In this document: positions 21,849 through 49,091 of the stretch, piece by piece | How the letters are laid out: each line of letters opens with the position of its first letter | How positions within the stretch are numbered: the stretch's first letter is position 1 | NCBI GenBank assembly: GCA_037176845.1 | Contig: JAYKXP010000184.1 | Coordinates: forward strand, 19,175-83,174 | DNA from: Paramarasmius palmivorus | Lineage: Eukaryota; Basidiomycota; Agaricomycetes; Agaricales; Marasmiaceae | DNA: 64,000 nucleotides | Direction of reading: 5' to 3' | Made by a program: the position numbers and the translations under genes | Notes under the pieces: model-generated | The model's input: the letters and a program-made list of their open reading frames with translations, nothing else | What the model was told of the DNA's origin: nothing | Database searches by the model: none

Positions 21849-21893
21849 CTAGCTTGTATGGGTCGGCGAACGCCGACATGTACTCGTTCGGAT
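21849..21893 (-). repeat. Helitron 3' terminus (hairpin plus CTAG) of element copy 2
   Basis: In element (minus) orientation a perfect 7-bp stem hairpin GTCGGCGTTCGCCGAC (21,862-21,877) is followed nine bases later by terminal CTAG (21,849-21,852), with T next in the flank. This is the canonical Helitron 3' end. Just before the hairpin lies ATCCGAACGAGTAC (21,880-21,893). It matches the inverse of the 5' terminal sequence at 49,078-49,091 in 11 of 14 bases, the asymmetric inverted repeat described for Helitron2/Helentron elements. Confidence 0.8.
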
Positions 21894-22120
21894 CTCTTAC
21901 GGAAGATATACCGGGGCAGGATATATTGTGGGGAAATGAAAGAGGTTTGGGTGACTATGTAATCTAGGTATCATACAAAGCCGAGACGCTGTTTTGAGAG
22001 CGTCTTTTTTGGGATTTCTTTTGGGCTGCCAACGCATCCCACTCGTAACCCCCTTCAAATTGTTGCAGCCGTGAATTAGCGATTCCATGAGCTGATGCAC
22101 AGCGATGCGTCTTCTTCTCC

Positions 22121-23047
22121 CTAACGAGCCGTTATCCTGATGAACTGTCGCCACGCGGGACAATCAATCCAAGCGCTACCGGGTCCATTAGGACCAAGAG
22201 CCAACCGCCGTTGCACCATGTGAGGAGTGTTTGTAGAGGCACAGGGGTGTATTGCCGCGATCCGACTCAATGGCCAGGTACTGGAAGATACTGGGTCTCC
22301 TGAAGTGGAGGGCAGAGCCTCGACAATGGTAGAGTCGGCGGTGTCCCAAAATCCAAAAATTGCCTGCTGAAGGCACTTCATGGCACGGGAATGTCGAAGA
22401 GACGCATGGAACGGCATTGAAGATGAAGAAGGAAAACGATAGTTTAATCCTTTCTGCTTCGGGAATGGAGTGAAGGGATGGGGGGTACAGGCCATTTCAG
22501 CGGGCACTTCGACGAAAGGTGGCAAGACTGAACGTCAGGCGGATACATGCTCGACAACCGGAAAAAAGCGGGTCGACACGGAATGGATGGTGAGGGTCTT
22601 GACGTAAGGTGCAGCCAGGCTGAGAAGTGTGATGAGGTTTATCGTGGTCGTGAATGCCGATGTGACCACAAGTACGGGGCTATAGTCTCGTATGTCGATG
22701 CCGCAGTCCTGGAGTGCCTGAGGAACGCTCAGAGAGCATCGAGGGACAACTGCTGGTGTGCATACGGTCTGTATATGAGGGTGGAGATATTTTTCTGGCG
22801 CTTTTTCGTATCTGAGAGGAGTGAGAAAACTGCTGCTGCAAGGCAGAAAGTTTTCGACACAAAGATGGTACCCTATAAGGTGATAGCGAAGGCTTCGCAC
22901 GGTTAATTGGCTGTAAAGGAACACAGTGAACTGAACGCACTCTTCATAGAATCCTCTATCTATGAGGACAAGACTGAGACGGTTTGGAAAGTTGGGGTCC
23001 TCTATTAGGGCGGTGAACAGGTCGATGAGGATGTCTCTCACCAACAT
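22121..23047 (-). pseudogene. F-box-like protein gene, interrupted by a stop codon
   Basis: A single frame runs from 23,047 (MLVRDILIDLF) through an in-frame TGA at about 22,535 to a second stop at 22,121. The first part has F-box-like helices (LSLVLIDRGFYEE) and then DYSPVLVVTSAFTTTINLITLLSLAAPYVKTLTIHSVS, split here across strands and loops typical of fungal leucine-rich F-box proteins. Protein-like composition continues after the TGA (LPPFVEVPAEM). The break may be a real mutation or a missed intron. It resembles the F-box array at 38.3-41.9 kb in style but not closely in sequence. Confidence 0.4.
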
Positions 23048-23396
23048 GATGGACGAGGGGATTCCTGGTTGCGTGTCGAAGTCACATCGATTGAGTTTTT
23101 ATGCGAGGTCCTTCTGAAGTAACACCGGAGATACGTTGACAGCAGACGGCAGCCAGTCACAACAAATTTTGCCATTCACGGTAAATATCAATTGGATTCT
23201 CATCCGTGTCAAAGAAGGTCAATTACCGTTGCTGACCTGTTGTGAACGACGCGTCGACACGTAAGTATTCCTGTTAATGAGAATCGCAAAACGCGCTAGA
23301 ACCACGGGGACTTCAACGGTTTTACGTCGCAACGCACCTCGAAGGAACTCACAGTTTGCACTTATAGGCAGAAAACTGCCTGTGTGTGTGTGCACT

Positions 23397-24174
23397 ATGT
23401 CCCTCTGTAGTGGGTGCGGTAATTGGCTTCGGCCATATCGGTGGAGCAGCTGCAAGAAGTGCCACAGCAGCTTTTACTGCGTGAGTTTCAGGTTTGTATC
23501 GCATACACCCTGCACTAATACGGTTTAAAGGATGATAAGTGCCGCAAAGCAGACACGTACCACAAGACAATTGGATGTGAACCTAGACCGCGGGCGATTA
23601 CCTGCCACGGTTGTGGAGTGCCATCGACGCCTACGGAGATGATAAAATGCACTACATGTTACTATGTGGCGTACTGCGTACGTACCTGGCTTGTTTTGTT
23701 TCCTTTGACCGAGCTGACTGGCGCATCTTGCAGAACGAGGCGTGCAAGCAAAACGACCAAGTGCACCACAATTCCGAGTGTCGTCCACCGTCGTCGGACA
23801 AGGGTATCGCTACCCGCAGTTACATTATGAAGCACGAACAACAGCTATGGAAACATGCGCGGGACACCGTCGATGAAGCACACCGAGAATACCAGGAAGG
23901 ATGCGTTGGACATTTCTTGGCGAAGCACGCCGTCACCTTGCGCATGCGTTACTTCCCGTCCAACGGAAAAAAGAAGTCCAGGTCGATCGTGCCTCTGAAG
24001 GAAACGACTCATTGTTTCGAGAAGGATTTCACTTGCGAGGAGTTGGTGTGGATGATAGAGGTTACCTCTCGGTTTTCAGGCTGTGCAGGGGTGATATTTT
24101 CGAACTATGTGGTCGAAGACGTGGATGGGAACGTAGTCTATACCGTAACAAAACTCTGGCCCTATCTGGTGTAA
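23397..24174 (+). CDS. Double MYND-type zinc-finger protein
   Basis: Three exons: 23,397-23,481, about 23,531-23,660 and 23,724-24,174. The first finger is CSGCGNW...CKKCHSSFYC, continued after an intron as DKCRKADTYHKTIGC. The second is CHGCGVP...CTTCYYVAYC, continued after an intron as NEACKQNDQVHHNSEC. In each finger the intron falls at the same place, so the pair probably arose by tandem duplication of one MYND exon set. MYND fingers bind zinc and mediate protein contacts. The remaining 140 residues (KHEQQLWKHARDT...) have no known domain. It lies in copy 2 between its 3' end and the Rep-helicase, converging on the latter; no counterpart is visible in copy 1. Confidence 0.8.
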
Positions 24175-24191
24175 CAAAATCAAATTGAAAT

Positions 24192-24224
24192 CATGTGACG
24201 ATCCCCGCGGGGGATCGTCACATG
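24192..24224. repeat. Near-perfect palindrome (hairpin family member 1)
   Basis: A 33-bp inverted repeat with arms CATGTGACGATC and GATCGTCACATG around a GC-rich centre. It lies between the convergent ends of the MYND and Rep-helicase genes. Related copies occur at 38,226 and 48,248. Confidence 0.85.
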
Positions 24225-24238
24225 ACCCCCACCCAAAA

Positions 24239-27200
24239 TTAGTATTGTCTGCTATACAGAGCTACCAGAGCTGTGTATCCGCGGGTCTCCTTCAAATTCA
24301 GTGATCGATTCTCAATATTCCCGTTCCAAACATAGGCCCCTCTTTGCCTACCTTCTGACATTCCGTCGTGATACCACACGTCTTTGTCGAGGTCAATGGA
24401 TCGACTTACAAAGTGAGCGTTGGCGAAATAAACTACACCTCTAAGTGTATACCGCTGCATCGTACCGTTCACAGGAACCTGCAACTCCGTGTCAATGTAG
24501 GGCACCTCCCGGTTCACCCCAGTCTGTCTCAAATGAATGCCTAATAACGGCGGTTGCTTGGCATAAAGTATCTGAGTGCTCAGACGTGTCTGACAGGGTA
24601 TACACGAATGAGGGGACCGAGTGAATGACGCTGAAGAAGTCAAGTCTCTCATGAGGTTAGCAGTTGAGGACGAAGGGACCGTTCCCTGGTCAATGAAGGA
24701 CGAGGACGGCGCTTCCATGTCGGTACGTTGGAAATCGCAGTTATCGCAGGTATGAACTCGAACAGATTCCTCCAACTCTGTCTGAATAGTGTATTTCATG
24801 ACATCACCCGCACTAGCAAAGGCTCCTACCTGAAAGTCTAAGGGGAACTGTTCTGCCAAAAGTTCTCTATACATGTCACGGGCCTCAGTCACACTGCGCC
24901 TGCGCTCAAGGCAGTCTTTAAACAAACCAGCTAACGATGTAAGTATAATGTTACCACTGCTACGAAATTCTTCTGTCCACCTCGGCACATCTGAAGACCA
25001 CACCGCATAGACAATTGAGAAACAGGCATCGTAAGCGCAACTATTATTACTCCAAATTGGACCATCCAGTTGACGGGGTGTTTGGGACGATGAAACTGTA
25101 CGTGAAACAAACCTGCTTCGTTTAGGATCCAGTGCAAGAGCTGACGGGGTGAGCTCGCGTTTCTTAGATTTTGAAGCGAGAACAGATGGATTTCGGGTAG
25201 GTAAGGTCCCATATTTGGCCTCTTGTTGTTCAGCAGAACACGATGGGGGGAGGATGGGGTCAGTCGACTTGGTATCAGACGACTTGGTATCAGACGACTT
25301 GGTAACAGTCACCGATCGTTTGTCTCGCTGCAATCGATCCTTTTTGCCATCCTTGCCCTCGTTCTGGCGAGCAACAATTTGCCAGGCAACGTCCTCGATG
25401 TCTATCTCTTCCAAGGGATCGCGTGCTGACCATCTGATTGTCTTGTACACGGTAGCAGGCACATAATCACGGCCCATCAATTCTCGGAAGGAGCGAATCA
25501 AAGTGTTTCGAGTGGTCCCATGCACTTTAGAAGACAAAGTCCCCTCATAACGTCTTTTGGTTATGTCGTCCAGCAGCTCCAATTCCCTGTACTCCTGCTT
25601 CAACGCGCTCCCGCGAAGACCTCCTGTGATTTTGGTCGTATCAAATCCTTGCAAGATCAAAGTACCTGCTGCAGTTGAGCTGCGGGACAACGCGGTGTAA
25701 TACGCGTGAAAATCATTGCAGTTGTTTAAATGTACGACATTAAAGTTCCTCGTTTTTCCTTGCGAAGCGTAATCAGTCATAGAGAAGCATGGAAGAATGT
25801 CGATCTGCGTACGAACAATTTCAACAAAATTACCATTCGGAAACGTTACTCTTACTTTTTCGGAAGACGGAGTTAAAGGGACGACGTTTGTGGGTAGACC
25901 AGGTACGCACACGTCACTGGGTGGGTTCGTTAACTTGACAAACAGAGTATCCAAATGTGGTCTTTTTGGGTTGCCTCGGGATATCCAACCGACAACCGTG
26001 GCTTCCTGCCCACGAGTAATGTTCAGTTCTGTAGCAAGATTCTTTCTAATCATAACGGGCATTCCACGACAGAGACTAAGCTTGGCCGGAGTCAAAGAAT
26101 CACAGGCCGTGGGTGGCATTGACCAGATACATTCCCTCCACTCATCAGTGAGCTTGTCAAGCACAATCTGCTTGGCATTGACAGGCACACGCTTTGTTGA
26201 CCGTGAATTGGATTTGGCTTCGTCATCACTATAAAACTCAGCTAACGGTTGGTTTGTTTCGGCCGCATAACGACGACAGCCAACGTCATTTATTAGATCC
26301 TTTTGGATGTTACGAGCAGTTATAATCGCAACATTTCTGAATTCCTTATCAGTGACACAGGGAGCTCCAGGGACCAAAGAGCTTACCCTTGAGTTCAAGA
26401 ACGCTATATCAGCGGGTGTACAATTTTTATAGCGCATATTTTCAAGCGCTGTCCTGAAGCGCGTGTCATCAGGGCTTTGGTTCTTTTGACGCATGTTTTT
26501 TCTCAGTATAACCACTGTGGTTACGTGATGCCATAAAGACTTACCAATCGCTTCCTCTTGTTGTCGCACCGTATTCCTGAATGCCCCTATACGACGACCG
26601 AACAGCGAAACACTGTCTTTTCCCATAGGTGGCGGTAACTGAGCGAAATCACCCGCAAAGATCATGTTAAGCCCTCCAAAGGGTTTCACCTCTTCCAATA
26701 ATGCCAAACATAGTTGACGCGAAATTCGATACAGATCCCACGAAGACAGCATGGACACTTCGTCAAAGAAAACATATTGCACACCCATTAGCTGTTCTCG
26801 AACATTGGGAAGCGTCGTGGATTCCGAAGTACGATCGTTGATCCCAAAGGCCGAGTGATAGGTGGATCCTCCAAGTAAAGCAGCGGCGCTGCCAGTTGGG
26901 GCAACAACAAGTAGACGGTAATGTTCCTTGCGCAAGGCGAAGTAATGAATCAATGCCTTCAATACGGTGGATTTTCCAGTTCCTCCCATTCCCCCGACGT
27001 ACATTTTCAGCTGGTCTGGTATAGGTGATGCAGCATGGTTAGCTATTATGCGGAACGCCCTTTCTTGCTCTTCGTTGAGGTCGAACAACTTTAACGTTTG
27101 ATCTATGTAGGCTTGATTGTTTGCAGCATTGAAGGTACGTTCCAAGTATCGTCTGTCGATGATCTGCACCTGACCCTTCATGTCTATGGTGGATTTTCTT

Positions 27201-30200
27201 TCGAAAAACGTCGATCTTACGCTCTGCGGTACGGCATTGGTACGTCGCTTGATAACTTCGTCCCTTTGTTCCATAAGGGCAGTCTTCCAGTGGTCTCTAG
27301 ACAACACAGGCAGAGCACTCAGATCAGGAACATCCACAGAGGTAGTCACGCCAGAGGTGCCAAGAGCACTCAGCCCTGTAGTCGCCAGTACACGGGCGAT
27401 TTCAAAACGGAGCCTCTCGTCGGCCTTGGCTTTGCCGTCCATTACCATAATGTCATCAAAGGCCTCATCAACGTTGTTGACTTCCATATCATCACCCGGT
27501 TGGTGTGTACCATCGTCGTTATCATTGACATCTGTCCCGTCGTCGTCACCGAACAATGGATCCCAGCTGGATGACAACTGGGCTCCCTTCTTCATTTGAG
27601 CCCTGAAATCGTCTCGTGCGTCCAGACATTCGTACCTGATCATCATATTATCCATCAGCTGTTTTTGCCTGTCAGTGAACTTGTGTGAACCGAAGGCTTG
27701 GGACCAAGTCTCTTTGTCACTCTTGAGATCAGTTCCCGTCCGCCATGGCTTAAAGAGGGTCAACATAGTGCAACAGTAATAGTCATAGTCTCCACGATCA
27801 CGCCGTGGCAAGTTACCCCCGACGAAGTTCACTACCACTTTTTCGTTTTCTGCATTAAGATGAGCCACATGGGTATCAACCAGGTCGTGTCCTGGCCGGA
27901 ACTTGTATTGGTTCTTCCTCAATGCTGCAGGCTCTCGCGGAGCATCCTCAACATCGCTCAGCTGACCCATGTCATTCAGACTGTCTCCTGCAACTGGGTC
28001 CCCGACGGTAGCATTAGCTGCTGCAGTTTTGCGGGCATGCTGCGATCTACGCTTTTTAGGTATCGCCACACGTTTTGCTAGACGTATCCAATCATATAGG
28101 CTCATACCCGATGTTTCGTTGGGCCTGTCAACATAATCAGCAACAGGCGACAAGCCAATGATTCTCTTTCCGCGTTTAAGCAGCGCCACCTTCTGAGGTA
28201 CATCTGGTTTCTCGTCAGGATGACAAGCTGCGCGTACGTGTGTGACATATTGTTGCCAATAGAAAGGTATGTAGGAATGATCGGTATAATGATCAGGGAA
28301 ACCGAGTAAGTACGAGCAAATAAGAGGCGCACCAAATTCCATCTTCGTGCTGAGTACGTTGACGACCTTGGTGAGCAACTGACGTGCTCTTTCTTGGCTA
28401 TCGAGATTTCCAGTGACCAGGGTTTTATTCTTCGAAAACACGGAAACAATGGCATCAAAAACGACATGCATTTTCAAGGAAGCTTTGGTGATGTAGTCAG
28501 TCACATACATGACCACGGCTTTAATAGCGGTTCCCGAACCAAGGAATGTAACATCGGTATTGCAACGCAGTAGATAAGTTAAAGGGTAAGAAAACGTGTT
28601 GAAATCAGGCTCCGATTTACGCATGGTGACCGCACCGGTCTGTCTATCAATGGTCGTTCTAGGGTAAAGCGGCCTGGGAAACCGTGCACGACATTTACCC
28701 CACCTGTTGTCACGACAGCCCTTGTACAAGTGCTTCTTTTTCACTGTTCCGTCCTTCTTCAAATTGCGACGACAGTCGTGGAAGTTACACCGTAGCAGGA
28801 GATCGTTGATGGTGCGGTTGTATGACTTCTTCCAACGCACATACGCTGAACACCTTTTGCATTGCATATCTGGATGAATCGCCGGATGCACGTCACAACG
28901 CCGAGGGGGTGATTCCGGGAGAGTTTGAGTAGGGACCATATATGTTTTTTTGTCCTCTTCTTGATCAACCTCAGCTTGGACATCCTTGTGCGAGGAACCG
29001 ACAAAGTCGCCAGAGAAAACACTTTCCAAGTACTCGATGAGTCGACGTTCAAATTCCTTTTCTCCGTCCATGATTTTTTTACGCACTTGCTCAGGAGACA
29101 TGGAGTGTTTAATCCATAACAACAGATGCAAGTGCAAGGTCAAACGTCCTTGCTGCTCGACGACCCCATAATGAGCATCGTGTTCGCCATAGATCCCACG
29201 ACGACCAGATCCACATCCTAGTATATCTTCAACAAGGATGTTCACCATGTGGTTGAAGAATCTCGCCGATGCGACTGGGTTGTCACAAATCAACTTAACT
29301 CTTTCTTTATATTCCCGGAGGTCTGGTTTGAGGCTACTGTCATGAAGATCAGCATAGTATAATGCGATAGGATGCAATTCATCAGCCGGGGCAATAGTGA
29401 TGTACCAGGACGGTGCGCCTTTGTGAGTGATTAATGACCATATCTCGTTACGCATGAACTTTTTCGATGTAGTGGAACCGGGAACTTTGCCGGCGACTCT
29501 GTCCAGGTCTGACAGGACTTTAAAACAATCCGTTTCTGCAGGGGTCTGTGGAACCACCTTCTCGCCTTTCTGCATTCGAGTAGCTATGTTCTGAAGCACC
29601 TGGTAGTCCAACTGTTGGATTCTCGATGCGACAGTCGAAAACGAACGCTTGTCTGCTAGCAGCCAACCTGACTGGGTTGCTGCCTTAACCTGCTGGTGAC
29701 TGAACGCCACGATAGGAAAGTTCTTATCGATCTGAAACCGCTTGTCATGATACATTAACAACCACTTTTTGTGTTCAGTTTCCGACAGTTGAGCAGTTCC
29801 GAGCCCTCCGAAACCGTAAGGGAAAAGCCACGGGAACATCTTAGGATACAAGGCTGGATTCTTCCAGATAGACTCTGCTTTAGAACCATGTCCCACAGCC
29901 AATACTTTGCCACCTGCTGCAAAGTAATTTGCAGCATAGCCTGTGAGCTGGTCTTTTGTCAAACTGGTAACTCGCTCCTCAGTCATTCCGTGTACCGTGA
30001 AAGAACATCCGTCTTCGATTCCATCCTCTTCAGCCATGTCATTCACCGCAACAGATTCCGGGGTTTTGTTACTATCGGCAGGCTTATACACGACACTACA
30101 AGGGGGTGCCTTTTCGTCGTATTGCAAGAGGTTCTCATTTGAGATGGCGACATCTGCGTAATCAGGATGGTTTAAGATCAGCCAATCCAATGCTTTCCTT

Positions 30201-32593
30201 ACAGCATTCCTTCGAATCAGGAACGGGGTTCGAGCAAAATCGGCCTCTGTCGGGGCTGATGCTCCCGTAAACAAGATCGCTAAGATCTCTTCAATGTCGG
30301 CACGAGGAGGAGGAAGCTTGCTATACATCCGTGGTGTCGGTACTTCAAATGCCATAGCGTTGGCCTTCATCTTACGACCTCCAGTGGCTATCTTGATATA
30401 CACAGCTGTATGTCGCACTCTGGCGACTACCAGCTTTTCCACGTAGCGAAGGTTGCGCAGTACTTCTGGAACTTCGCCAAGCCAGAGACCAGTTGCCAGT
30501 GCGTTCTTTGGTACATTGCCTTTGCTCAAGGATGCACGACACTGCTTACACAATTTGTGCAAGGAGGGGATGACGACAGGACCACTGATAGGAAGCACTG
30601 GATCGGTTGGTGAGAGTCTTTCTTTCCTTGTGACACCCTCAGAGTCGAGTACTCGAAGAAGTCTGCCTTTTCTCAAGGTCGACATCTCAGATTTGAGACG
30701 CAATTGACCGCAGACTGCGCAGCCTTCCTCTTCAATGCGAGCTTTGTCTTGCTTGGCACACGCTGAGGCGATGATATCTGCGACAACACTGTCATTCAAC
30801 GGGGCCGGAGGGTAGACGTATTCAGGATTTGCAATTGAGCCAGGAGAAGTGGAACCCAAATCTGCTGTTGGTGCGGGAACTAGTAGAGGCTCACGCTCTG
30901 GGTCGTTGTCTTTTGGTTTGTTAGACAAGACAATGGGTTCGATAGGAACAGTGGACATGCGATCAGATGTCGATGCGGATGGTGCCAGAGGCCTGTTGAT
31001 GGAAGGAGGTTGAATCACAAGAGGGTCGTCAACAGCAAACAGAGTTAGTGCTCCAGTACAATTTGGGCAATAGTGGTTCGCGAACTGTTGCATGAGCTGA
31101 GGCAAGGTCATTTTCGAAGCGCCCTTGATGTTGTGAATAAGGGCGACCTTTCGAGCGTCGGTCAAGGTAATATTCGGGAGAAGTACTGGGACAGGAATGT
31201 CAGTCAAAAGCGTATCTGGAGTGACTTGACACAACACATTACGAGGTACGCCATGAGAAAGGAAACGATACCGCGAATGAGAGTAAACTGTAGGAAGAGA
31301 GGCAGGGTGGGGGACAAAAAAAGGTTCTAGGATATCGGCGGGGACCAAATGTCTGGCACGCCCTCCACCGACAATCTTAGGAGGAGAAAGGGGTATACTG
31401 TTATCCAATGACTTGAACACAGAAACAGTCGTTGCACAAATGGTACAGTCATGGGTGTCGAAAAATTGTTCCAACAAACAAGGAGCAAGAGCAACATCTG
31501 TCGGTGCTCCGTGCGCTACAGCAATAGAGCGAGCTTCCCACAACGTCAAAGCCGGCCACAGGACGCGCAACGGAGCCCGAACAAGCATATATTCGTTGCT
31601 ACGAAAGGGTGTTGCAGCTTGGGGGGGGCCGTGCATGACAAATTGGAGCGATTGCAGGCCGTCAGCAACAGTATCAAAGCGATTGATTGCATATGGTTCC
31701 ATGCTCGATGGCGGCACCAAAAGTAAAGGGTTGACGATGGTCTCTGAGTAGACAACAGGAAAGACGGACTCCGGATTGTAACAACACACCATACTCAACA
31801 GGTATTCAAACGGATATCCAACACCATAGATAACTCTTTCCAAAGAACTGTTCAGAGAGCATATGAATCGGATAGAAACATAATATATTCGCAAATTGAG
31901 GTAGCATAAAAAGGTGATTCTCAGTCGACGTGCGTGAGACTGGTCAAAGGAAAGCATTTGGACTGCGTAATCGTGTTTAAGCACGCAATTACGGAGGACT
32001 GACATTCGCGAATAGCGTGCCAGGTCATGCGGCGTTGCAGGGTAACACGGGCAAGCATAAATATACACCATCATCTGAAGTAGGGACCGCTGAAGCAAGA
32101 AGAATAGGTACCAAAGGTCCTCTATAACAGAGTGGGGCGTCGACAATACAGTTGAAGCCGAGCGTTGAGCAATCGTGGATGTCACCAGCGCTAGCATAGG
32201 ACGACGGAATAGGTACGAGAATTGGAAGACAACAACACGATCACTTGAGTTGACGAGCACGTACGGACAGTGATTGATGGGTGCAGAAAACATAGGCGGG
32301 TTACCCGATGTAGTTGGTACTGAAGGGAATTGGATAGACGCGTTATGAGGTGTTGTATACACCTCTGGAGAAGATGCCATCGTAATGGCATGCCCGCGAT
32401 TGACTATTCGTTCACGATGAACAAATAAGTCGCGCTGGGCATTGGTAGAAGCGGTAGGAAACCAAGGTCTGGACGCGACATCAGACAAATTAACGGCTAC
32501 AGTCCCAGAATATAAGTAGCGTTCCGTGAAAGAGACATTCAAAACCCACCGAGTATGAAAATCATCACCAACATCTGCAAGCGCAGAGTCCAT
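24239..32593 (-). CDS. Helitron Rep-helicase with C-terminal USP-like peptidase domain
   Basis: An uninterrupted 2,784-codon ORF. Order: an N-terminal region with Cys pairs (CAVCGQ...CKQC, about 620-690), then the Helitron-like N region (AVGHGSKAESIW...FPWLFPYG, about 900-960). The HUH nuclease motif LHLHLLLW is at about 1,154, with the Rep tyrosines YVTDYITK at about 1,365. A PIF1-type helicase follows, with Walker A GGMGGTGKST (about 1,868) and Walker B FFDEVSML. The last 300 residues add NNSCAYDACFSI (Cys about 2,519), a CxxC pair and GVVYFANAHFVSRS (His about 2,727), the Cys and His boxes of a ubiquitin-specific-protease fold. Rep nicks and joins ssDNA in rolling-circle transposition, and the helicase unwinds it. 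All motifs look intact. It is the only transposase in the window. Confidence 0.92.
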   Translation of the reverse strand: MDSALADVGDDFHTRWVLNVSFTERYLYSGTVAVNLSDVASRPWFPTASTNAQRDLFVHRERIVNRGHAITMASSPEVYTTPHNASIQFPSVPTTSGNPPMFSAPINHCPYVLVNSSDRVVVFQFSYLFRRPMLALVTSTIAQRSASTVLSTPHSVIEDLWYLFFLLQRSLLQMMVYIYACPCYPATPHDLARYSRMSVLRNCVLKHDYAVQMLSFDQSHARRLRITFLCYLNLRIYYVSIRFICSLNSSLERVIYGVGYPFEYLLSMVCCYNPESVFPVVYSETIVNPLLLVPPSSMEPYAINRFDTVADGLQSLQFVMHGPPQAATPFRSNEYMLVRAPLRVLWPALTLWEARSIAVAHGAPTDVALAPCLLEQFFDTHDCTICATTVSVFKSLDNSIPLSPPKIVGGGRARHLVPADILEPFFVPHPASLPTVYSHSRYRFLSHGVPRNVLCQVTPDTLLTDIPVPVLLPNITLTDARKVALIHNIKGASKMTLPQLMQQFANHYCPNCTGALTLFAVDDPLVIQPPSINRPLAPSASTSDRMSTVPIEPIVLSNKPKDNDPEREPLLVPAPTADLGSTSPGSIANPEYVYPPAPLNDSVVADIIASACAKQDKARIEEEGCAVCGQLRLKSEMSTLRKGRLLRVLDSEGVTRKERLSPTDPVLPISGPVVIPSLHKLCKQCRASLSKGNVPKNALATGLWLGEVPEVLRNLRYVEKLVVARVRHTAVYIKIATGGRKMKANAMAFEVPTPRMYSKLPPPRADIEEILAILFTGASAPTEADFARTPFLIRRNAVRKALDWLILNHPDYADVAISNENLLQYDEKAPPCSVVYKPADSNKTPESVAVNDMAEEDGIEDGCSFTVHGMTEERVTSLTKDQLTGYAANYFAAGGKVLAVGHGSKAESIWKNPALYPKMFPWLFPYGFGGLGTAQLSETEHKKWLLMYHDKRFQIDKNFPIVAFSHQQVKAATQSGWLLADKRSFSTVASRIQQLDYQVLQNIATRMQKGEKVVPQTPAETDCFKVLSDLDRVAGKVPGSTTSKKFMRNEIWSLITHKGAPSWYITIAPADELHPIALYYADLHDSSLKPDLREYKERVKLICDNPVASARFFNHMVNILVEDILGCGSGRRGIYGEHDAHYGVVEQQGRLTLHLHLLLWIKHSMSPEQVRKKIMDGEKEFERRLIEYLESVFSGDFVGSSHKDVQAEVDQEEDKKTYMVPTQTLPESPPRRCDVHPAIHPDMQCKRCSAYVRWKKSYNRTINDLLLRCNFHDCRRNLKKDGTVKKKHLYKGCRDNRWGKCRARFPRPLYPRTTIDRQTGAVTMRKSEPDFNTFSYPLTYLLRCNTDVTFLGSGTAIKAVVMYVTDYITKASLKMHVVFDAIVSVFSKNKTLVTGNLDSQERARQLLTKVVNVLSTKMEFGAPLICSYLLGFPDHYTDHSYIPFYWQQYVTHVRAACHPDEKPDVPQKVALLKRGKRIIGLSPVADYVDRPNETSGMSLYDWIRLAKRVAIPKKRRSQHARKTAAANATVGDPVAGDSLNDMGQLSDVEDAPREPAALRKNQYKFRPGHDLVDTHVAHLNAENEKVVVNFVGGNLPRRDRGDYDYYCCTMLTLFKPWRTGTDLKSDKETWSQAFGSHKFTDRQKQLMDNMMIRYECLDARDDFRAQMKKGAQLSSSWDPLFGDDDGTDVNDNDDGTHQPGDDMEVNNVDEAFDDIMVMDGKAKADERLRFEIARVLATTGLSALGTSGVTTSVDVPDLSALPVLSRDHWKTALMEQRDEVIKRRTNAVPQSVRSTFFERKSTIDMKGQVQIIDRRYLERTFNAANNQAYIDQTLKLFDLNEEQERAFRIIANHAASPIPDQLKMYVGGMGGTGKSTVLKALIHYFALRKEHYRLLVVAPTGSAAALLGGSTYHSAFGINDRTSESTTLPNVREQLMGVQYVFFDEVSMLSSWDLYRISRQLCLALLEEVKPFGGLNMIFAGDFAQLPPPMGKDSVSLFGRRIGAFRNTVRQQEEAIGKSLWHHVTTVVILRKNMRQKNQSPDDTRFRTALENMRYKNCTPADIAFLNSRVSSLVPGAPCVTDKEFRNVAIITARNIQKDLINDVGCRRYAAETNQPLAEFYSDDEAKSNSRSTKRVPVNAKQIVLDKLTDEWRECIWSMPPTACDSLTPAKLSLCRGMPVMIRKNLATELNITRGQEATVVGWISRGNPKRPHLDTLFVKLTNPPSDVCVPGLPTNVVPLTPSSEKVRVTFPNGNFVEIVRTQIDILPCFSMTDYASQGKTRNFNVVHLNNCNDFHAYYTALSRSSTAAGTLILQGFDTTKITGGLRGSALKQEYRELELLDDITKRRYEGTLSSKVHGTTRNTLIRSFRELMGRDYVPATVYKTIRWSARDPLEEIDIEDVAWQIVARQNEGKDGKKDRLQRDKRSVTVTKSSDTKSSDTKSTDPILPPSCSAEQQEAKYGTLPTRNPSVLASKSKKRELTPSALALDPKRSRFVSRTVSSSQTPRQLDGPIWSNNSCAYDACFSIVYAVWSSDVPRWTEEFRSSGNIILTSLAGLFKDCLERRRSVTEARDMYRELLAEQFPLDFQVGAFASAGDVMKYTIQTELEESVRVHTCDNCDFQRTDMEAPSSSFIDQGTVPSSSTANLMRDLTSSASFTRSPHSCIPCQTRLSTQILYAKQPPLLGIHLRQTGVNREVPYIDTELQVPVNGTMQRYTLRGVVYFANAHFVSRSIDLDKDVWYHDGMSEGRQRGAYVWNGNIENRSLNLKETRGYTALVALYSRQY

Positions 32594-32814
32594 GCTCGAG
32601 ACAAAGACACAGGTTTAAGGGTGTCTATGGTAGACCGTTCAACCAACATTCCGAGAGACGGAAAAAGATAAAACTACTCACAGCAGAACTGCATTATAAG
32701 GGGAAGCATATCGAGACCGTCGAAGGAAAACGAAGGGACTGTCAAAAACAAAATCAACCAACTGATATTCGAACGGCACGTGATACAGGAAATATAGAGT
32801 ACGTAAGTGTCATG

Positions 32815-38286: not shown

Positions 38287-38322
38287 CCTTCAAGTTCAAC
38301 TTACCCACTTCCATCCAACAGA

Positions 38323-39463: not shown

Positions 39464-39657
39464 CATGTCAGTAGTTGACGTACCTTCAGTTCCCAATTTG
39501 GCTTCACCTCGGAATGACACCCGCGAAGAGAAGGTCGCAAACGCCGTCCCATCAGAGATTCGCATAATTTAAATTAGAAGTGACTGAGCTGTCCGAAAGC
39601 TGTCCTGGACGTTAGCGATTTAAAAAGGACAACGGCCAATAGCCCGGGGAATCAACC

Positions 39658-40747
39658 ATGCCGAAAGCAAAGAAAGCAAACCCTCACCGGCCTTCCCCAA
39701 AAACGGCACCGCTGAACTACGACACCACATTGGAAGTATTGAAATGGGCAGTCGAAATGAGGAGACAGGAGAAAAAGCCGTTCATAGGGTTTTTGCTTAT
39801 GCGCGGGGACTATACAAGAGGGTAAGGACATTCGAGCAACGATATAGAACGCAGACTCACCACAAAGTAGGCTGTTGCCAGAGTTATACAAAACCATCAA
39901 GGTCACTACCTCAACGAAAATAGCCAAGCTTCGCAACACACTCGTTGGCAACGCGCTGGTAGCAAGCATGGTCCAGAACATGTTCATCGCGTGCGAGGAC
40001 CGGGCAAATTTGGGTGACGATGAAAACGGTGGTCGTGTAGCAACCCATGTGGGTGATGTTGTTCATGCGATTGCCCCCACAGTCGTCCGACTCACAATCC
40101 GTCTCGAGACCCTGCCGGACGTACTGTACACGCTCAGGGCGATACCTTTTCCTGAGCTCCGGGAAATCCAAGCATCATACTATTACTTCCTCGATATCTC
40201 CACATCCATCAAACTTCATTCGCGTTTGAAGCAGTACTTCCGCGAAGGTCACAGAAACGATCCACCCAAGACGAAGCGACTCACTATCGCCTCTGACCAA
40301 GGAAAATTTCCTCAACTCGAGCGCGTATTCGCAATTTGTGGCCGCGAAGATCTGGAATACCGTGGCACAATCTTCGACATGTCACACTTGAATTCTGTAA
40401 AGGAACTGGTCTTTCTTATGGAATCCCGATCCGGATTCGCCTTCGATGTCAAGTACTACCTGAAGCGACTTGTACCTCCAGCTGATGTGGAGGTGATAGT
40501 GCTCACCAGCTTTCGAGGACCGGCTGTAAAAGTGGTAGAGACGGAGAGGAAGAAATTCGATAGGAGAATTGTGATACCAAGGGTGGGGCCAGACGGGGAA
40601 ATAGCATCTCCCCTGTACTATTATCTCAATGCCAGTCCCCTAGACGACGTATACTGGACACAGCTGAAACGATATGTGCAGAACCGCAAATACACAGTCA
40701 GCCTGTTCCATGCGGAAACGTTCAAGCCCCTTGTACTTGATGTTTAA
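39658..40747 (+). CDS. F-box-like protein 2 of array
   Basis: Two exons (39,658-39,821 and 39,871-40,747), about 346 aa, start MPKAKKANPHRP. The basic leader could be a nuclear signal. The segment GFLLMRGDYTRG then LLPELYKTIKVTTS fits the end of an F-box. The remaining part (VVRLTIRLETLPDVLYTL, FPELREIQASYYYFL) parallels F-box proteins 1 and 3 over its length. The substrate is unknown. It lies in tandem with gene 1 on the plus strand, 195 bases downstream, and converges with gene 3. Confidence 0.6.
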
Positions 40748-40784
40748 ATTACCCGTTCTTCATACAAAGTGTTACACTACAACA

Positions 40785-41872
40785 TTACACGCGCGACTGT
40801 AACAACACGTCTGGACGATTGGGATATAAAGACTTCTCCGAGACCCTTGTCGCTAGAAAGCTTTTCAACTCGACCCAAAACCTCGCCACTCGGGGGGTAA
40901 GACCTGAAGGGAGCACCAGCTCCTCTATACCAACAGCGTCCGGCGAACAGACTCGAAGTAGCTTCCCGTCGGAGACTACTACCAATCGGGCGTGCCAAGC
41001 CCACGGAGCAAGAGACGGTATGTCGAAACGTCCCAAAGAATGCATTAAAGCGAATGCCGCAGCATCAGTGGGCAACTTGACGTGGATAAGGAAGTCGTAT
41101 ACATTGCTATGCCAGCTGGCACCGCTAAGGCGAACGCAAAGGCCATCGAGCCCCCGAAAATGGCGGAAATCGTAGGCTGGCACGGTTGTGCGAGGGAGCC
41201 TGACGTCGTGATGGACTGTGAGGCGACGCAACTTGGGCCAGGGGCGAGACGGCATGTCACCAAGCGATAGGGGAACGCTGCGATGTGTATATTCCAAAGC
41301 ACCTATTTCTGTGTAGTAACGCCTAAGGCTACTGTCCAACTCAACACAGGTATGGGGGTCTAGGAGCAAATGGTGGCTAGCGTCAAGAACAAAGAGCGTC
41401 GGGAACGACAAGGTGCGGAAGGTAGACATAATTCCCAGGTGAAGCCGAGTCTTCAGCACAAGCATCTGCACGGTTGGAGCTGTTGCAGCAATAATGTCAG
41501 AAATGCATGTCGGGATATGACGGTCCTGAGGCAACGTGTAGGCGGGATGCGCTGGATTGAACGGCATGCAACTGCTGCTGACGCCCAAAATTCTGACGAA
41601 TGATCCCAGGGCAGGATTTGAAGCCAGTGTGGAATGAACCTGCGACAACATCAGGACAGAGCCGATCTCGATCTTCTTGTAAAGAACTCGCTGGACACTG
41701 GAAGGCGTTAACACAGACCAAAGGTTCTGGCTGTAAACACTTACAGTAATGTCCAAGCTTTACAAACTCTCGCCAATCCAACGACGAAGGAACCCCTCCT
41801 CCCAACGGACTCTGCAACAAGGGAGAGTATTCGAGCCCATATCGAGTCTTCTATCTTGGCAACGGAAGTCAT
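40785..41872 (-). CDS. F-box protein 3 of array
   Basis: Two exons (41,872-41,745 and 41,697-40,785) with a 47-nt intron, about 346 aa, start MTSVAKIEDS. The F-box is clearest here: ILSLVAESV...LARVCKAWTLL then VQRVLYKKIEIGS. The leucine-rich part includes VQMLVLKTRLHLG, FPTLFVLDASHHLLL and WPKLRRLTVHHDV, matching gene 1. F-box proteins normally act as SCF substrate adaptors. It converges with gene 2, whose end is 37 bases away. It could equally be a passenger captured from the host as element machinery. Confidence 0.7.
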
Positions 41873-42118: not shown

Positions 42119-45105
42119 CTACTTGGCCTTCTGAACGGGGTCGCTCAAAACGATGGCGAACAACGGGTTAAGCAACAAAGTATGATACTTGGTAGGCGCG
42201 AGTTTGCCAACAAAACCATGAATAGTATGAGCAACAACCACCAAAGAGTTGCGAGGAACTTCAGAAAGCGGAAAAACAGGGAGGTCCATGTAGTTGTCCC
42301 ACTCGGCTGGAGTGAACGTGAAACCCTTCGATCCCGGGGTAGTGCGACCGTCGTAAATGGGAACTGCATATGTTAGTTCCGAAATACAAACTTCAGAAAG
42401 GCGACAAAACTTACTCCCATCATCGAACATACGACAAGCAGGTGCGCCTGGAGCAAAAACGCTGCCCAAGGCACGGCGGATGGGGACTTTCGAGGGCTTA
42501 GCACGAGGCTTAGCACGAAGGTCATCGTCGTCGTCGTCCGGTTCCTCATCCTTTGGGACTGGGAAGGAAATGAGCAAATCAAAGCCGAAAGGGAAGAACA
42601 CACACACCTTTAGGCTCTTTCCTGGTCGAAAACACCAGGGCGTGTTTACGGCACGAGGTATGGAGCATATCAGAAGCAAAATAATCGCCTATATTAGTCT
42701 GGAGAATCTCAAAATCGTTCTCGAAGGGAACGACGTGGAGCTGGCGAGACGGGCCATCCTGAGAAGGAACACCTGACTGCAAATGACTGGCTTTGACCAG
42801 TCCAACAGTGGTGAAGATGGCATTAGACGCTCCTTCGGACGGAGGCAATAGCAAGCAAAACCTCCCAGGTATAAACCCAGTCTTTCGAAGGGGTACTCGG
42901 ACAGGGCTGTACACAGGGGGCGCGGACATGAAGCCTAAGGCCCGGACAAGTTTCCTATAAATCAGTCGTAAAAACAGTTCTATCCGTGAAAGTTACGAGA
43001 ACACTCACTTCTTGCCACCTGCATCCAGGCGTTCCCTGACAGTCGAGTAATTCATAGGCATGAAGCCGTGGAACTCCCCCATATTCAAGGGATGACCAAC
43101 AAAATAGTGACGTTTCATGCTTAGAGAGGCACGGTTTCAGCACAGAGCGCACGAGAGGAGAGTTTGAACTCGCAACACTCACGGAGGCAACCAATCCATG
43201 TCGGCGTACATAGCGCGAAACTTGTCCGGTATACTCTCTTCATCCAACAGACCCGCGTATGGCGCTACAAGGGAAACAGTTACCAAAAGACGCAAACTAT
43301 CATACAAGGAAACACCTACGGGGCTGACCATCTTGAACGTCCACAGGTACCAACGGGAGTTCCTTGTCGATGTTGCGGGATGACACGCGGGCAGGCAGCT
43401 CAGTGGCCTTCCTGAGGAAGTGATAAACAAGGTTAGACCTACATACACTCCAAATCATCGATACATCCTACCCTTTCCCTTTCTTCGGAGTGATTTCAAC
43501 GGGTGGTGACAACGCCTGCAAAGCGTCTCTGTACATTCGCAGTAAGTATTTTCGCTCGAAGAACATAAGACAAGAACGTACTCATCCCATTCAGGGGACA
43601 AACACCTTTTCGAAGAAACGTTGTCCTTGACAGGCGAGCTAGCCAGAACATGAACTCCAATGCACAAGGAAAAAACACAAACAAATGCACCTATGAGAAA
43701 CCGGCAAGGCGTTGTCTACGTCATCTTCGTCATGACAAGGAGACGAAGGTACAGGAGTATCGGACCTCCTAGCAGAAACCAGGTAAGTACAACAAAAGAA
43801 ATAAACGAGAACCAAAAAGACGCACTTTGCCCGAGACCGTGTAGCCGTAACAGGGGAAGGAAGGTCATCATCCTGCGAGCTTAACTCCCTGCATCCGAAA
43901 AAAAATTCATCAAGACCAAAACACACCGGGAAGCAGACCCTACTAACCTCAATGTTAAAGTAGGGGACTCCATCTTGACATCGGGTTTGACGTTAGCAGC
44001 AGCACTATATGAAACAGGACATCAGTCAGTAATCCCGAGCAATGCTACACACAACATACACTTTCTTCTTGCCTTTTCGACGGGCAGCCGAACAGGCAGG
44101 ACGACGGGGCTTGTACGACTCATCAGAATCACTGAAATCAAGAAGGTTAGCTTCCCAATGGAAAAAAAAAGGGAAAAAACACACGATCTAGGCGAAGGAA
44201 CCGGAGTCAGAGTCTCAGCGGCATGCAGAGCATCAAGTCTAAAAGGGTTGCTAAGCATACCGAAGCAAGGCCCTTACTGAAACACATACTTTTTGATAAG
44301 AGAACCGGAAGGGGTGTCGTCGGCGTTGTACCTAGCTTTCTCGGTGGGCTTTGGGCTAGCACCAGACTGTCAGAAACTGAAATGAAGACCAGGACGTAAA
44401 CAAACTCACGTGCGTTGAGGACGAGAAGTCGAAGAGCTGGGGACAACAACGGTCTTGCGCGTCAACGGTGTACGAGGCCTGCCGAATACGTTCAACACTG
44501 ACAAAAGAAAGGCCAAAGCACCGATCACTCACTCGTGGTCAGACTCATTGTCAGACGGTAGAATTTCACCAAACACAAATCCAGGCCGCGATGACACCGA
44601 AACTCGATTCGATCTTTCAGGGAAGAATTCAGCAGGCAGCAAGGAAGGGATAGAAAAGCATATTTACTTCTCGGGAGATGCCGAAGAAGAGACCATCTTA
44701 GTACTCTGGCTTCCCCTTGGCCCAGTATCAAGACGCGCGACTTTCGTCGGGGAAGACCTGGAGGGAATCAAAGGTGAGTCCAAGGCCAAGAAGTAGAAAA
44801 GAAAGAGTATCACTCACTCATTCATAGGACTGGCACTAGGCCTCCGTTTACGCTCATCAAGTGAAACATCGTCGTCAGAGTCTATACCTCCAAACTTCTT
44901 GACGGTGCTAGACCTCTCCTTTGGCGCGATTCCGGAGCTACAGGAATCAGGACACGACATCAAACGACAACAGAAACACGAACCGAACAAACACGACAGA
45001 CCCTTCACTGTCGCTATCAGAAACTGCAAACGCGGAGGATCTGAAGGAACGCATGAGACAACACGGACTGCAAGATGCAAGCGAACAGACGGACTTTTGG
45101 GGCAT
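42119..45105 (-). CDS. Gene CD2: Ser/Asp-rich protein with PC4-like C-terminal domain
   Basis: The start is MPQKSVCSLA at 45,105. Many short exons encode a charged disordered leader (AFAVSDSDSEG, GGIDSDDDVSLDERKRR, SSPCHDEDDVDNA). Folded C-terminal exons follow: LHVVPFENDFEILQTNIGDY, a linker with DDDDDDLRAKPRAKP, then AVPIYDGRTTPGSKGF and WDNYMDLP. The last block resembles the PC4 ssDNA-binding fold (P-KKG-L--W pattern); this is my inference. The gene aligns with CD1 in order, strand and neighbours, being divergent from E. It is not split by a retroelement. In the cell it would be nuclear if the PC4 reading holds. Exon limits in the leader are approximate. Confidence 0.55.
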
Positions 45106-45562: not shown

Positions 45563-46783
45563 AAAATGGTCAAACCCGACTACAATGTCAACGACGCCGG
45601 TAAGAGAGAGCTTGTAACATTACAAGCAGACAACGTTAATACGTTTGACAGCCAAGCGACTTGAAGAAATAGCTTCAGAACGCAACAACTCCGGAGTAGT
45701 CATGAATCCAGTATCTGACTTCGAGAAGGCAAGTGAAAACCGACACTCCCTATGCGCGGGGACTCATAGTACATGCACAGGACCTGAAACGGGAAGAGAC
45801 AGGACCGAAGGTAATACAAACGGGCTCAACAGAATCCCTGTGTTGGCGACTTTCCATCGCGGGCGAAGACGACCAGGACGAGGAACCAGTATTCTCCATT
45901 CAGGGTATCCTCGCGGTGTGCGACCTGCCGCCAATCATGAAGCCATTCGGAATGTAAGCAAAGATTCCACATCATATTGACCCGAGCTAATGCATTTGCA
46001 GCAACGCAACCGCACGGAACTTAAACCAACGAGTGGTACTAGTAGGATACGACCAACCGACATTTCAGCTCGCCCTGGACGGACTCGATAGACTGAACAC
46101 GTATATCCGAGGCAACATCCGCGAAGACTCCATTCCAACTCCATTTCAAAAGCACGGCGACCAAGTCGCAGTGAACATAAGCAACCGGTACTTTTCCAGC
46201 GCACGGCTCGCCCAAGGACAACCACATATCGACTTCAAGGACGACGTGGACCCCAAAGGCTATCTTGAGCATCTCCGGGGTGCTTTCCTTCACACTGCAG
46301 AGAACCAAGTCCACTACTTCGAGAGATCGGTCTCCGAAGACGGAAAAACAAACAGGTGAGCACAGAAACGCCAGGCTGTGCGGTGGAAATGTAACTCCGT
46401 CAACAGATTCCACGACATCAAACCGTCCAAGCTTCGTGTGGGGGACATAGTGGAGGTGCAATTCACGCTAAGCGTCGTTGAAGTAGGGGGGCGGAAAGAT
46501 GCCAGCCGCGCTGTCGAGCAAGACAACGAGAGATTCAAGACCAAACTGATACTACGTGCAGTCACGCTCCTGGACAACAAATACTCCGAGGTAAGACGAG
46601 CAACTGTACACACAAGGCCACCCTAACCACGACGAACAGGGAACCCGTGCAACCCCCACGACCAATACTCAACGCGTCAGTTCATTGAAACGAAAGATCG
46701 GTCATCAAGTGGAAGAAGCCAACGAGGCACGAGAAAGGATGAAGCGAATGGCGATAGACATTACATTGCCTAGGCCTCAGTAG
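45563..46783 (+). CDS. Gene E2: conserved element protein with GDIVE motif
   Basis: The first exon is MVKPDYNVNDA, then AKRLEEIASERNN up to SDFEK. The next intron (45,730-45,781) appears to be GC-AG (gcaagt...gcacag); it restores frame to DLKREETGPKV. The core continues SLCWRLSIAG, FSIQGILAVCDLPPIMKPFG, NRYFSSARLAQG, DPKGYLEHLRG and HTAENQVHYF. After another intron comes LRVGDIVEVQFTLSVVEV and LRAVTLLDNKYSE, then a basic tail LKRKIGH...MKRMAID. It aligns with E1 over its full length. The beta-rich GDIVE block looks OB-like and could bind nucleic acid (inference). It lies upstream of F2 on the same strand. The family is not named to my knowledge. Confidence 0.65.
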
Positions 46784-47214: not shown

Positions 47215-48208
47215 ATGGCACTCGACGCGTATATACGGTGAGACCACATATTCCACTTCAACGAACAACAGGGCTTACACCACCGCAGAAAGACCACCAG
47301 CAACGAGTATCTCTACCAGCTATATGGAAAATTCTTCACCAGGAAGGAACAGGAGAGCTTCCGGAGTGTCCAGGCAAAGACGAATGCTCTCGTCTCGGGG
47401 TCCACCGTATTGGCGGCATTAACAGGCGGAAGTTTCGAACCAAATGACCTGGATATACTAGTCAACAAAAGATGGGCGACCGTCATAGGAGAATTTCTGG
47501 AAGAAGCGACCTTTGCATTCGAGCCCCTCAGAGACGTAAAAGTCGGCGAGAAGTACGCCAGCAGGGCGCAACCAGTTTCGTTTAGACAAGCTCTGGAGGA
47601 GGAACTAAAAGCCTGGACGCCAAACACGGGGTCAAGCGTCGACCGGTACAGGAACCGCACCATTGCAGGAGTCTTCAACTTCGAAAGGAAGGGGCGTAGA
47701 GTGCAGATTATATGCGTGCATGCACACCCTTTGGCAACAATCTTACATTTCCATTCAAGTGAGTGCATACCAACAACCGAGAATGAAGAAAGACTCACGG
47801 ACCGAACCAACAGCGGCAGTCATGAATTTCGCCACGGACAAGGAAATATTCGCACTCTATCCCTTCAAAACCATCATCCAACGGAAGTCTCTGGTGCTGC
47901 AATCGTCGGAGAGAGACGACATAATAAACGCAATTCAGAAGTACAAGGAGCGGGGTTGGGAACCTATCGAGGCGGTAGGGGCGGGTGAAGCCTTGAACTC
48001 GCAGAGAGAAGCATCGATCGTGAGGAGACGAGCGAAAGATAGCCACAGTATACGCATACCACTACCAGAGGAAGATGTGAGGCGCGTGGACAGTGAGGAT
48101 GCGGGGCTAGATCTCGAATGGGTAATCGAGTACAGAGAAGCAGGACACGCACGCATTCGCATTATTAGAGAAGGGGAGGAGATAAACTGTCCCGTTTGCA
48201 CTATGTAG
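47215..48208 (+). CDS. Gene F2: nucleotidyltransferase-fold protein, motif intact
   Basis: Exons 47,215-47,237, 47,289-47,758 and 47,820-48,208 give 293 aa in frame, starting MALDAYIR. The signature NALVSGSTVLAALTGG...NDLDILV (about residues 38-66) is the GS...DxD motif of the polymerase-beta-like nucleotidyltransferase superfamily, which transfers NMP or shapes a nucleotide-binding fold. After the second intron, MNFATDKEIFALYPFKT and IQKYKERGWEPIE match MNIATAYQVISLYPATS and a similar block in F1. The C-terminus ends EEINCPVCTM. Activity is not proven; many mushroom proteins of this kind are uncharacterised. It is shorter than F1. Hairpin member 3 lies 39 bases past the stop. Confidence 0.65.
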
Positions 48209-48247
48209 GCTCAGAACGTGGAAGCAACTGGAGAGAACACAAAATGC

Positions 48248-48284
48248 GTCACATGACGATCACCGCCGGAGATCGTCACATGAC
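48248..48284. repeat. Palindrome (hairpin family member 3)
   Basis: An inverted repeat with arms around ACGATCACC and GGAGATCGTCACATGACC, just 3' of F2. It has the same arm sequence as members 1 and 2. Confidence 0.85.
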
Positions 48285-48439
48285 CAAACGAATCAAACGC
48301 AGAAGCAACTTGAACGTAATTAGTTCAGAGCGAGAGCATATAAAGCAACGATGAGCACGACGCAACGACCGTTAAAAGAAGACAGGCCCCGATAAAGCAG
48401 GCGTAAAATACAGCCAGCAAATTAGAAAAGAAGTAGAAG

Positions 48440-48868
48440 ATGGCAACAAGATCCGAGCACACAGAGAGGCCCAACGGCCTGGCAACCAAAGACGCACAAA
48501 CTTTTGGTAAAGTCGCAATGATACACTAAAAATACAGACACTGACGACAACATACCCCAGTGGACACACTGAACGACCTGAATGAAGACCAACAACAAGC
48601 AGTGATGGACCTGCTGCGTCTGATACTAGACGGTAAGTGGCTGCAACAGCGAACCACGAAAGAAAAAAAAATGACATGGTGGCTAGACGGTAGTGATTTT
48701 GTGGAAAGGATAAGCCAACACGTACCCTTCTTGGCTCCGCTACTCACAGAGGAAGACGAACCTGAATGGCAAGTCAGGGACATGAGCAACAGATGGGAAC
48801 GCAGGGACATACTGGAGGTTATATCGATTTCACGCAGGTCAGAAAAGAAAGAGGACCAGGTACCATAG
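48440..48868 (+). CDS. Gene G2: small acidic helical protein
   Basis: Exons 48,440-48,506, 48,561-48,632 and 48,687-48,868 give 106 aa in frame, starting MATRSEHTERPNG. The helix NEDQQQAVMDLLRLILD is followed after an intron by DFVERISQHVPFLAPLLTEEDEPEW, then a charged tail. The intron after the helix is at the same place as in G1 (20,155-20,443). It has no membrane segment or signal. It is the cargo gene closest to the right (5') end of copy 2, 220 bases from the boundary. Function unknown. Confidence 0.55.
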
Positions 48869-49055
48869 AAAGAGGTACATACAAAGAATCGCGTGAGCGA
48901 CGCGGGGAAAACGCGGGCAATGAATTAATGACGTGAAAGATCAAAAGGGCCTTAAAAGCGACATGTTGACAACCGTGGGTACGCATCGAGAAAAAACAAC
49001 CAATGAGAGAGCGTACTCGGGCGTGGGAAATTTCCCAAAAAATTAAGGCCTCACC

Positions 49056-49091
49056 GATAAAGAACGACTCCGGATAAATCCGAACTCGTAA
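49056..49091 (-). repeat. Right (5') terminus of element copy 2
   Basis: On the minus strand it starts TTACGAGTTCGGAT and continues to GTCGTTCTTTAT, matching copy 1 at 21,781-21,818. The first 14 bases recur inverted (11 of 14) beside the 3' hairpin at 21,880-21,893. It contains a small CGGAT-AA-ATCCG hairpin. The flank on the host side is TTAAATCCACCAG, so the base next to the element is A on the minus strand, as expected for an A-T insertion. Confidence 0.6.

Follow-up and report, generated by a model that had tools for sequence, protein, structure and literature searches.

Giant Helitron2-type elements with a conserved, ordered gene cargo in the mushroom Paramarasmius palmivorus

Can a Helitron carry a fixed set of complete genes over tens of kilobases, and would such a cargo serve the transposon? 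The question is raised by a stretch of 64,000 nucleotides of the Paramarasmius palmivorus genome, here called the window (C184:19,175-83,174), in which an earlier note, made from the letters alone, had proposed a giant Helitron with a fixed multi-gene cargo at window positions 21,849-49,091. We consider it very probable that the window holds two elements from a family of giant Helitrons of the Helitron2 type whose conserved, ordered cargo serves the element itself. The units of this family measure 27-36 kb between defined ends and encode an HUH Rep with a PIF1-type helicase; an ordered gene core is present in 29 elements, and the cargo has been conserved over the long term. All counts below come from one P. 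palmivorus genome assembly (68.3 Mb, 393 contigs).

The positions 49,091 and 21,849, which the earlier note took to bracket a Rep-helicase and a set of further genes, are authentic ends of a Helitron2-type rolling-circle transposon on the minus strand (E1, 27,243 bp). At 49,091, reading leftwards, the element begins with TTACGAGTTCGGA, its 5' asymmetric terminal inverted repeat (ATIR; 49,079-49,091, minus strand), which pairs with the bases that follow to form a hairpin; in element orientation the hairpin partner is followed by a GTTCTTTAT block. A sister element, E2, starts at 21,818 with the same 5' motif and GTTCTTTAT block. The 12-base 5' motif has 78 copies in the genome, compared with 15 for its reversed control; among 30 fetched loci with this motif, 18 pass a strict 5'-end pattern, and no pair of matching outer flanks (E<=1e-5, at least 60 bp) was found among the 30. 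At the other end, an ATIR-like copy (21,880-21,892, minus strand) differs by three mismatches in E1 and is an exact 13-bp repeat of the 5' ATIR in the elements E3 and E4 described below. It is followed by a GTCGGCGTTCGCCGAC hairpin (21,877-21,862, GTCGGC-GTTC-GCCGAC, minus strand) and then by CCATACAAGCTAG up to 21,849, where the terminal CTAG (21,849-21,852, minus strand) meets a T. This layout of TCCGAACTCGTAA or a near copy, hairpin, CC..CTAG and then T recurs across the elements, and the 3' signature CCGACCCAN(4-8)CTAGT has 77 genome copies versus 11 for its control. What had been called a canonical Helitron 3' end is a genuine terminus, but of the Helitron2 type. The 3' part of E1 has a second copy (C270:32182-40500, 99.2% identical over 8,352 columns) that stops at CTAG and the shared T, with unrelated DNA beyond, which confirms the 3' boundary of E1. 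Two non-autonomous elements of 1.18 kb (L026 and L030) are 99.6% identical inside and differ in their flanks on both sides, which fixes both element boundaries. Further short non-autonomous elements of about 0.4 and 1.2 kb (L036 and L037) also end like the giants.

Between its ends, E1 carries a Rep-helicase open reading frame (ORF) of 2,791 aa (24,239-32,614, minus strand) with DUF6570, Helitron_like_N containing an HLH motif (Pfam E 4.9e-31) and a PIF1 helicase (E 9.5e-27). Upstream of Rep lie gene J (32,815-35,086, minus strand; 665-aa model, five exons), gene N (35,531-36,954, minus strand; 411-aa model), the conserved C-terminal part of gene C (42,119-43,061, minus strand; 279 aa, with weak upstream exons at 44,026-44,960), gene B (45,566-46,783, plus strand; 311 aa, five exons) and gene A (47,215-48,208, plus strand; 295 aa, three exons). 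Gene models were made with a caller of our own scripting that gives a bonus for homology between elements. The earlier note had seen the cargo recur in one diverged element; Rep and homologous cargo are in fact common to E1 and three further elements, E2 (window 1-21,818, minus strand; full extent C184:4772-40992, 36,221 bp), E3 (C39:402888-431466, 28,579 bp) and E4 (on C9, 27,168 bp). Rep identity is about 51% between E1 and E2 and 59% between E1 and E3, and the HLH motif is present in Rep of 24/24 elements.

The same architecture extends across the genome. Profile searches for the Helitron Rep gave 96 matches at 94 places, two second pieces having been dropped, and genome-wide matches to the J, B, A, C and N proteins were mapped around these places. 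At 29 of the 94, J, N, C and B stand on the expected strands, and counted from Rep their order is J-N-C-B in all 29; under uniform placement, J would be expected beside about 0.3 Reps. Gene A lies within 40 kb upstream of Rep in 25 of these 29 core elements, in varying positions, and of the 45 gene-C loci, 39 have a Rep place no more than 40 kb downstream. In 16/29 core elements the exact 5' motif precedes the Rep domain by 17-44 kb, and both exact end signatures are present in 8/29, with spans of roughly 27-46 kb. The Rep frame reaches at least 2,400 aa in 26/29; at places with no J, B or A matches it does so in 8 of 49, a rough comparison because these 49 include other Rep types. Recurring pairs of ends that enclose Rep and cargo in fixed order are thereby confirmed within the P. 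palmivorus genome. The remaining 65 Rep places comprise 7 with a partial core, 7 with B closer by and 51 lacking all five genes in range. Of the seven with B closer by, four have B alone upstream of Rep (C36:104599, C47:51833, C102:1933 and C246:43699) and three have C and B (C19:62026, C270:19648 and C9:470124). These seven B-bearing places look like smaller relatives of the giants and are possible intermediates, and the Rep+B and Rep+C+B elements suggest that the giant form was built up stepwise.

It could be argued that such loci are merely small, Rep-only Helitrons adjoining a conserved host cluster, with the far 5' end belonging to another element. Small Helitrons do occur: at 3 of the 94 Rep places the Rep domain and the 5' end are just 3.8 kb apart. 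In E1, however, no second 5' end was found inside the element at up to three mismatches: the only look-alikes are at 46,345, 43,175 and 29,819, so that a hidden 5' end near 32,593, which the earlier note had named as one of two observations that would undo its proposal, is rejected. The exact 5' motif far upstream in 16 of the 29 core elements also argues against this alternative, as do the uninterrupted insertion sites, which we sought by searching the same genome with joined flanks. E4 has two such sites, one on C70 (98% identity across the junction) and one on C5 (96%); the junction reads GAGTCTTG^TTCTGC, with no duplication. E2 has one on C11, again with no duplication: one side is 97.6% identical over 1,534 columns, and the other, bordered by E1, matches over 36 bp. 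E2 and E4 were inserted without target duplication, and because the DNA beyond the far 5' end and the DNA beyond the 3' end are contiguous at their sites, a small Helitron beside host genes is disfavoured for both. For E3 there are five uninterrupted loci, two of them aligned and 91% identical over 1,410 columns. A Rep domain is found 4.3-4.6 kb away from four of these loci and 8.4 kb away from the fifth, a closeness that makes E3 seem to be nested in another Helitron. The unoccupied sites that the earlier note proposed to look for in other strains thus exist for E2, E3 and E4 elsewhere in the same assembly, and we regard the small-Helitron alternative as very improbable.

The copy in the window is less straightforward than its sisters, since the interval proposed by the earlier note has real ends but is not one clean insertion. 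The right flank of E1 fits the C11 site and the left flank does not. The latter is a host gene (window 49,092 onwards), which we take from its look to be a membrane-protein gene, with paralogues on C53 (87%) and C50 (81%); the continuation of the C53/C50 gene was not found after the 3' end of E1. Because its flanks come from different loci, the window copy is either rearranged or an assembly join of two copies. We give an even chance to the second of these possibilities, in which E1 is a chimera of near-identical copies and part of the 27-kb unit mapped here is an artefact. The mismatched flanks and the near-identical 3' part on C270 favour a chimera, and so do the gene-C matches at C253:41766-42585, which score the same as those of E1, have no Rep upstream in range and are possibly a fragment of another E1 copy. 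On the other hand, both E1 ends are genuine, and the reciprocal product, a C11-like left flank with a 5' end, is not among the matches in the assembly. A chimeric E1 would be compatible with a family of giant, cargo-bearing Helitrons because the case for that family rests on E2-E4. The C270 copy has a different flank, which recurs at C59:243057 (100% over 251 bp) beside non-element DNA; its contig ends inside the element copy. This copy is likely a recent insertion, and E1 belongs to a recently active lineage.

What the cargo might do is best approached through gene B. In a Foldseek ranking, the predicted structure of its E3 homologue lies nearest to the single-stranded DNA-binding proteins (SSBs) of phage T7 and giant viruses (nucleocytoplasmic large DNA viruses, NCLDV), and its predicted OB fold is closer to T7 gp2.5 and Enc34 than to other OB folds. 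In the model, a strand at 121-127 is followed by a helix at 132-150, which we read as beta 2 and its helix; a long helix directly after beta 2 is given as the hallmark of the T7-type SSB family in the accessible text of one study (PMC5686142). The last 22 residues of the E3 model, where T7-type SSBs have a long acidic tail, include 8 acidic and 3 basic ones. Homologues of B occur in Armillaria, Amanita, Pluteus and Moniliophthora. By predicted fold, B would be a virus-type SSB with putative single-stranded DNA binding, a function that matters because rolling-circle transposition needs it. Our fold comparisons cover Foldseek-ranked matches, and families outside the ranking are not thereby absent. 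Sequence searches of the PDB with A, B and J returned nothing significant, a search of IMG/VR viral contigs for B gave 48 pattern matches and no confirmed one, and 1 of 31 B family members has a weak Pfam match to CENP-K (E 0.0015).

Gene A may have a nucleotidyltransferase-like fold, which goes with a G-S...D-x-D motif, and its model, the sole one compared letter for letter with an NCBI protein, is identical to VNI00_017685 (P0042). Among the matches listed for it are at least four proteins, all from P. palmivorus, and one relative (P0044) bears the name "F-box domain-containing". Gene pairs of the A family, both members on one strand at a distance of about 2.2-2.5 kb, were also seen just inside 5' end motifs (C15:322953/325350, C65:196367/198753, C43:65084/67326, C47:159791/162168 and C268:31685/34016). 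Gene J is JmjC-like by motif, and N and J may be halves of one gene with N first, as modelled in E3 with a single 11-exon gene. Of the earlier note's JmjC dioxygenase, the HxD motif and the distal H are present in E1, but pairwise alignments to E1 recover the full HxD...H at aligned positions in only 5 of 24 elements (E1, E3, E4, C38 and C241; the 24 being L061-L080 and E1-E4). The gene is still in place in the 19 that lack one or both motif parts, among which C160 and C52 retain the distal H and E2 shows an HGD at a shifted position. The best JmjC profile match, JmjC_2 at E 0.21, is below the cut-off and occurs in one of three J sequences, and the E1 model yields nothing at E<=0.1. On this distribution we reject catalytic JmjC activity as the general role of J. 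A homology search with J across 8,000 candidates gave no match, a result that carries no information on how widely the gene occurs. On the 3' side, a MYND zinc-finger-type gene (23,397-24,174, plus strand; 223-aa model) was named from a Pfam zf-MYND match on its E3 homologue; it has 31 matches genome-wide and was left out of the core count.

If the cargo were passive, it should decay. We compared E3 and E4 by the NG86 method, which gave dN/dS values of 0.06 for A, 0.10 for B, 0.05 for C and 0.13 for the 5' F-box-like gene, rough figures because dS is saturated; no dS was obtained for J, N, Rep, the 3' F-box-like gene or the MYND gene. From these ratios, A, B and C look to be under purifying selection. 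Across 24 of the 29 elements, Rep and J distances are correlated (r 0.68, 0/5000 permutations), as are those of B with Rep (r 0.63) and with J (r 0.75; n=11, 0/10000 permutations), a congruence that is expected of genes travelling together. These results bear on ordinary capture, in which a Helitron took up a block of host genes once and its copies inherited them as passive passengers. Helitrons are known to capture genes, those of Pleurotus reaching 13.7 kb with one to four cap genes in the accessible text (PMC4289320), and gene A belongs to a large family that is partly outside elements. Nevertheless, low dN/dS in A, B and C (0.05-0.10, with saturated dS), an order kept in 29/29, the co-divergence of B and J with Rep and the predicted replication-type fold of B make ordinary capture unlikely. 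Alternatively, the cargo may be kept for the benefit of the fungus, like the adaptive cargo of Starships, since low dN/dS cannot separate host advantage from element advantage. The 29 diverged copies in one genome, the way in which cargo sequence change tracks Rep, and an SSB fold that, as predicted, would suit replication and not a host trait leave host benefit quite unlikely.

Several observations weigh against a giant Helitron2-type family with a cargo of its own. A single genome is the whole evidence base. Some cargo loci are not near a Rep (13/56 for B, 20/52 for J and 39/85 for A) or not upstream of one (18/54 for N and 6/45 for C), and seven further Rep places carry part of the core only; the fixed cargo of the earlier note holds for the J-N-C-B order, but gene A is a larger family. 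Spans above 36 kb rest on the nearest 3' signature, which is possibly another element's. The flanks of E1 do not join into one site, at its junction E3 shows an 11-bp difference from its relatives, and the Rep frame of E4 is interrupted. No Foldseek match of B to the PDB falls below E 0.09, and the 38 matches from a viral fold search have low TM-scores (0.24-0.40, query-normalised). The loss of the J motif in 19 of 24 elements argues against a conserved demethylase role. Finally, size alone is not new, since maize Helitrons of up to 39 kb are on record in the accessible text of a 2019 review (PMC6431247).

The remaining features complete the map of the window. The "F-box array" of the earlier note comprises three ORFs of about 300 aa (38,513-41,759), but scans of five ORFs or models brought no Pfam family, F-box included, above the cut-off. 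No PC4-like match was found among the scanned proteins, with no test aimed at PC4; the Pfam scans likewise gave no TET/JBP match among cargo proteins and no tyrosine recombinase among Rep and cargo proteins. A small ORF (37,437-38,132, plus strand) is partly conserved in E2-E4, with no family found. E2 has gene J at 170-2,057 and gene N at 2,911-4,499 (both minus strand), gene A at 6,171-7,215 (plus strand; another position in the element, with a degenerate nucleotidyltransferase motif), gene C at 8,674-10,012 (minus strand; two model pieces) and gene B at 17,395-18,329 (plus strand; 249-aa model), together with a Copia retrotransposon ORF of gag/pol type at 12,302-15,313 (minus strand).

How might such an element move? 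We propose that Rep would nick at the 5' end and the helicase peel one strand off, while B, if its fold is a guide, would coat the unusually long single strand; the 3' hairpin would terminate replication and the circle would insert at a G^TT (or T^T) site. The remaining cargo (nucleotidyltransferase-like A, JmjC-like J/N, C and MYND) may be retained because it helps the element, most likely, at a guess, through anti-silencing or contact with host chromatin, and the giant form may have been assembled from Rep+B and Rep+C+B stages. A bolder proposal, which we hold tentatively and rate somewhat short of an even chance, is that these are self-sufficient rolling-circle replicons, a class of giant Helitrons comparable to Polintons among cut-and-paste elements, which encode both a conserved helper set and their own SSB, descended from that of phages or giant viruses. 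Rep+SSB Helitrons would then have grown stepwise into the giants across Agaricales, and the gene pools of viruses and Helitrons would have mixed. Should B be an SSB, it would show how a very long single strand can be handled in rolling-circle transposition and would connect Helitrons with the replication genes of viruses. Sites that exist both occupied and uninterrupted offer natural pairs for direct tests of Helitron transposition, capture and cargo function.

The elements have the features by which the Helitron superfamily is recognised, namely an HUH Rep with a PIF1-type helicase, a 3' hairpin, a CTRR-type end and, in E2 and E4, insertion without duplication. Their assignment to Helitron2 draws on end structure: asymmetric inverted repeats are the layout that defines Helitron2 in the available portions of Bao and Jurka 2013 (PMC3627910), and the likeness to Helitron2/Helentron elements described there extends to asymmetric inverted repeats of 8-15 bp, a 5' hairpin, a 3' repeat just upstream of the 3' hairpin and a Rep-helicase (PMC3627910). 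Helitron2-type elements in Fusarium are about 5-11 kb in the text at hand (PMC5148889), whereas those described here are 27-36 kb and have a fixed multi-gene core. According to the accessible text of the 2019 review, fungal Helitrons grow to about 14 kb and host genes are captured at full length only in exceptional cases (PMC6431247); by contrast, 29 diverged Helitrons of one mushroom have in common an ordered gene set that is apparently under selection.

The nearest published fungal case found is HELPO1 of Pleurotus, from an Agaricomycete whose Helitrons carry whole genes of unknown origin in the available text (Castanera 2014, PMC4289320). HELPO1 elements reach 13.7 kb with one to four cap genes downstream of Rep (PMC4289320), whereas here J, N, C and B are upstream and in fixed order in 29 elements. 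Maize Helitrons are similar in size (up to 39 kb) and, in the sections of the review available, have up to nine captured gene fragments (PMC6431247), in contrast to complete-looking genes conserved across diverged elements. Fungal Helitron1/2 elements with a TET/JBP dioxygenase also have a possible epigenetic cargo gene, as the open part of that report describes (Kojima 2025, PMC12730594), but our elements have no TET/JBP match, and J, JmjC-like by motif, mostly lacks the full catalytic motif. The RPA Helitrons of plants, cnidarians and fish are likewise transposons that supply their own single-strand-binding protein, in the accessible text (PMC6431247); the predicted SSB here has a T7/giant-virus fold and is a separate gene. 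Starships of Pezizomycotina are giant cargo-carrying fungal transposons too, but the Starship literature, in the parts available, classes them by a tyrosine recombinase, and the elements described here have an HUH Rep and rolling-circle ends and belong to a basidiomycete. A literature search of titles and abstract openings, with most subscription papers and bioRxiv outside it, returned no giant Helitron with fixed cargo and, within the same bounds, no Helitron-coded T7-type SSB. What is new here is a fixed, ordered gene core at giant size with a companion gene for an SSB that is virus-type by predicted fold, and there is a fair chance that these elements deserve a class of their own.

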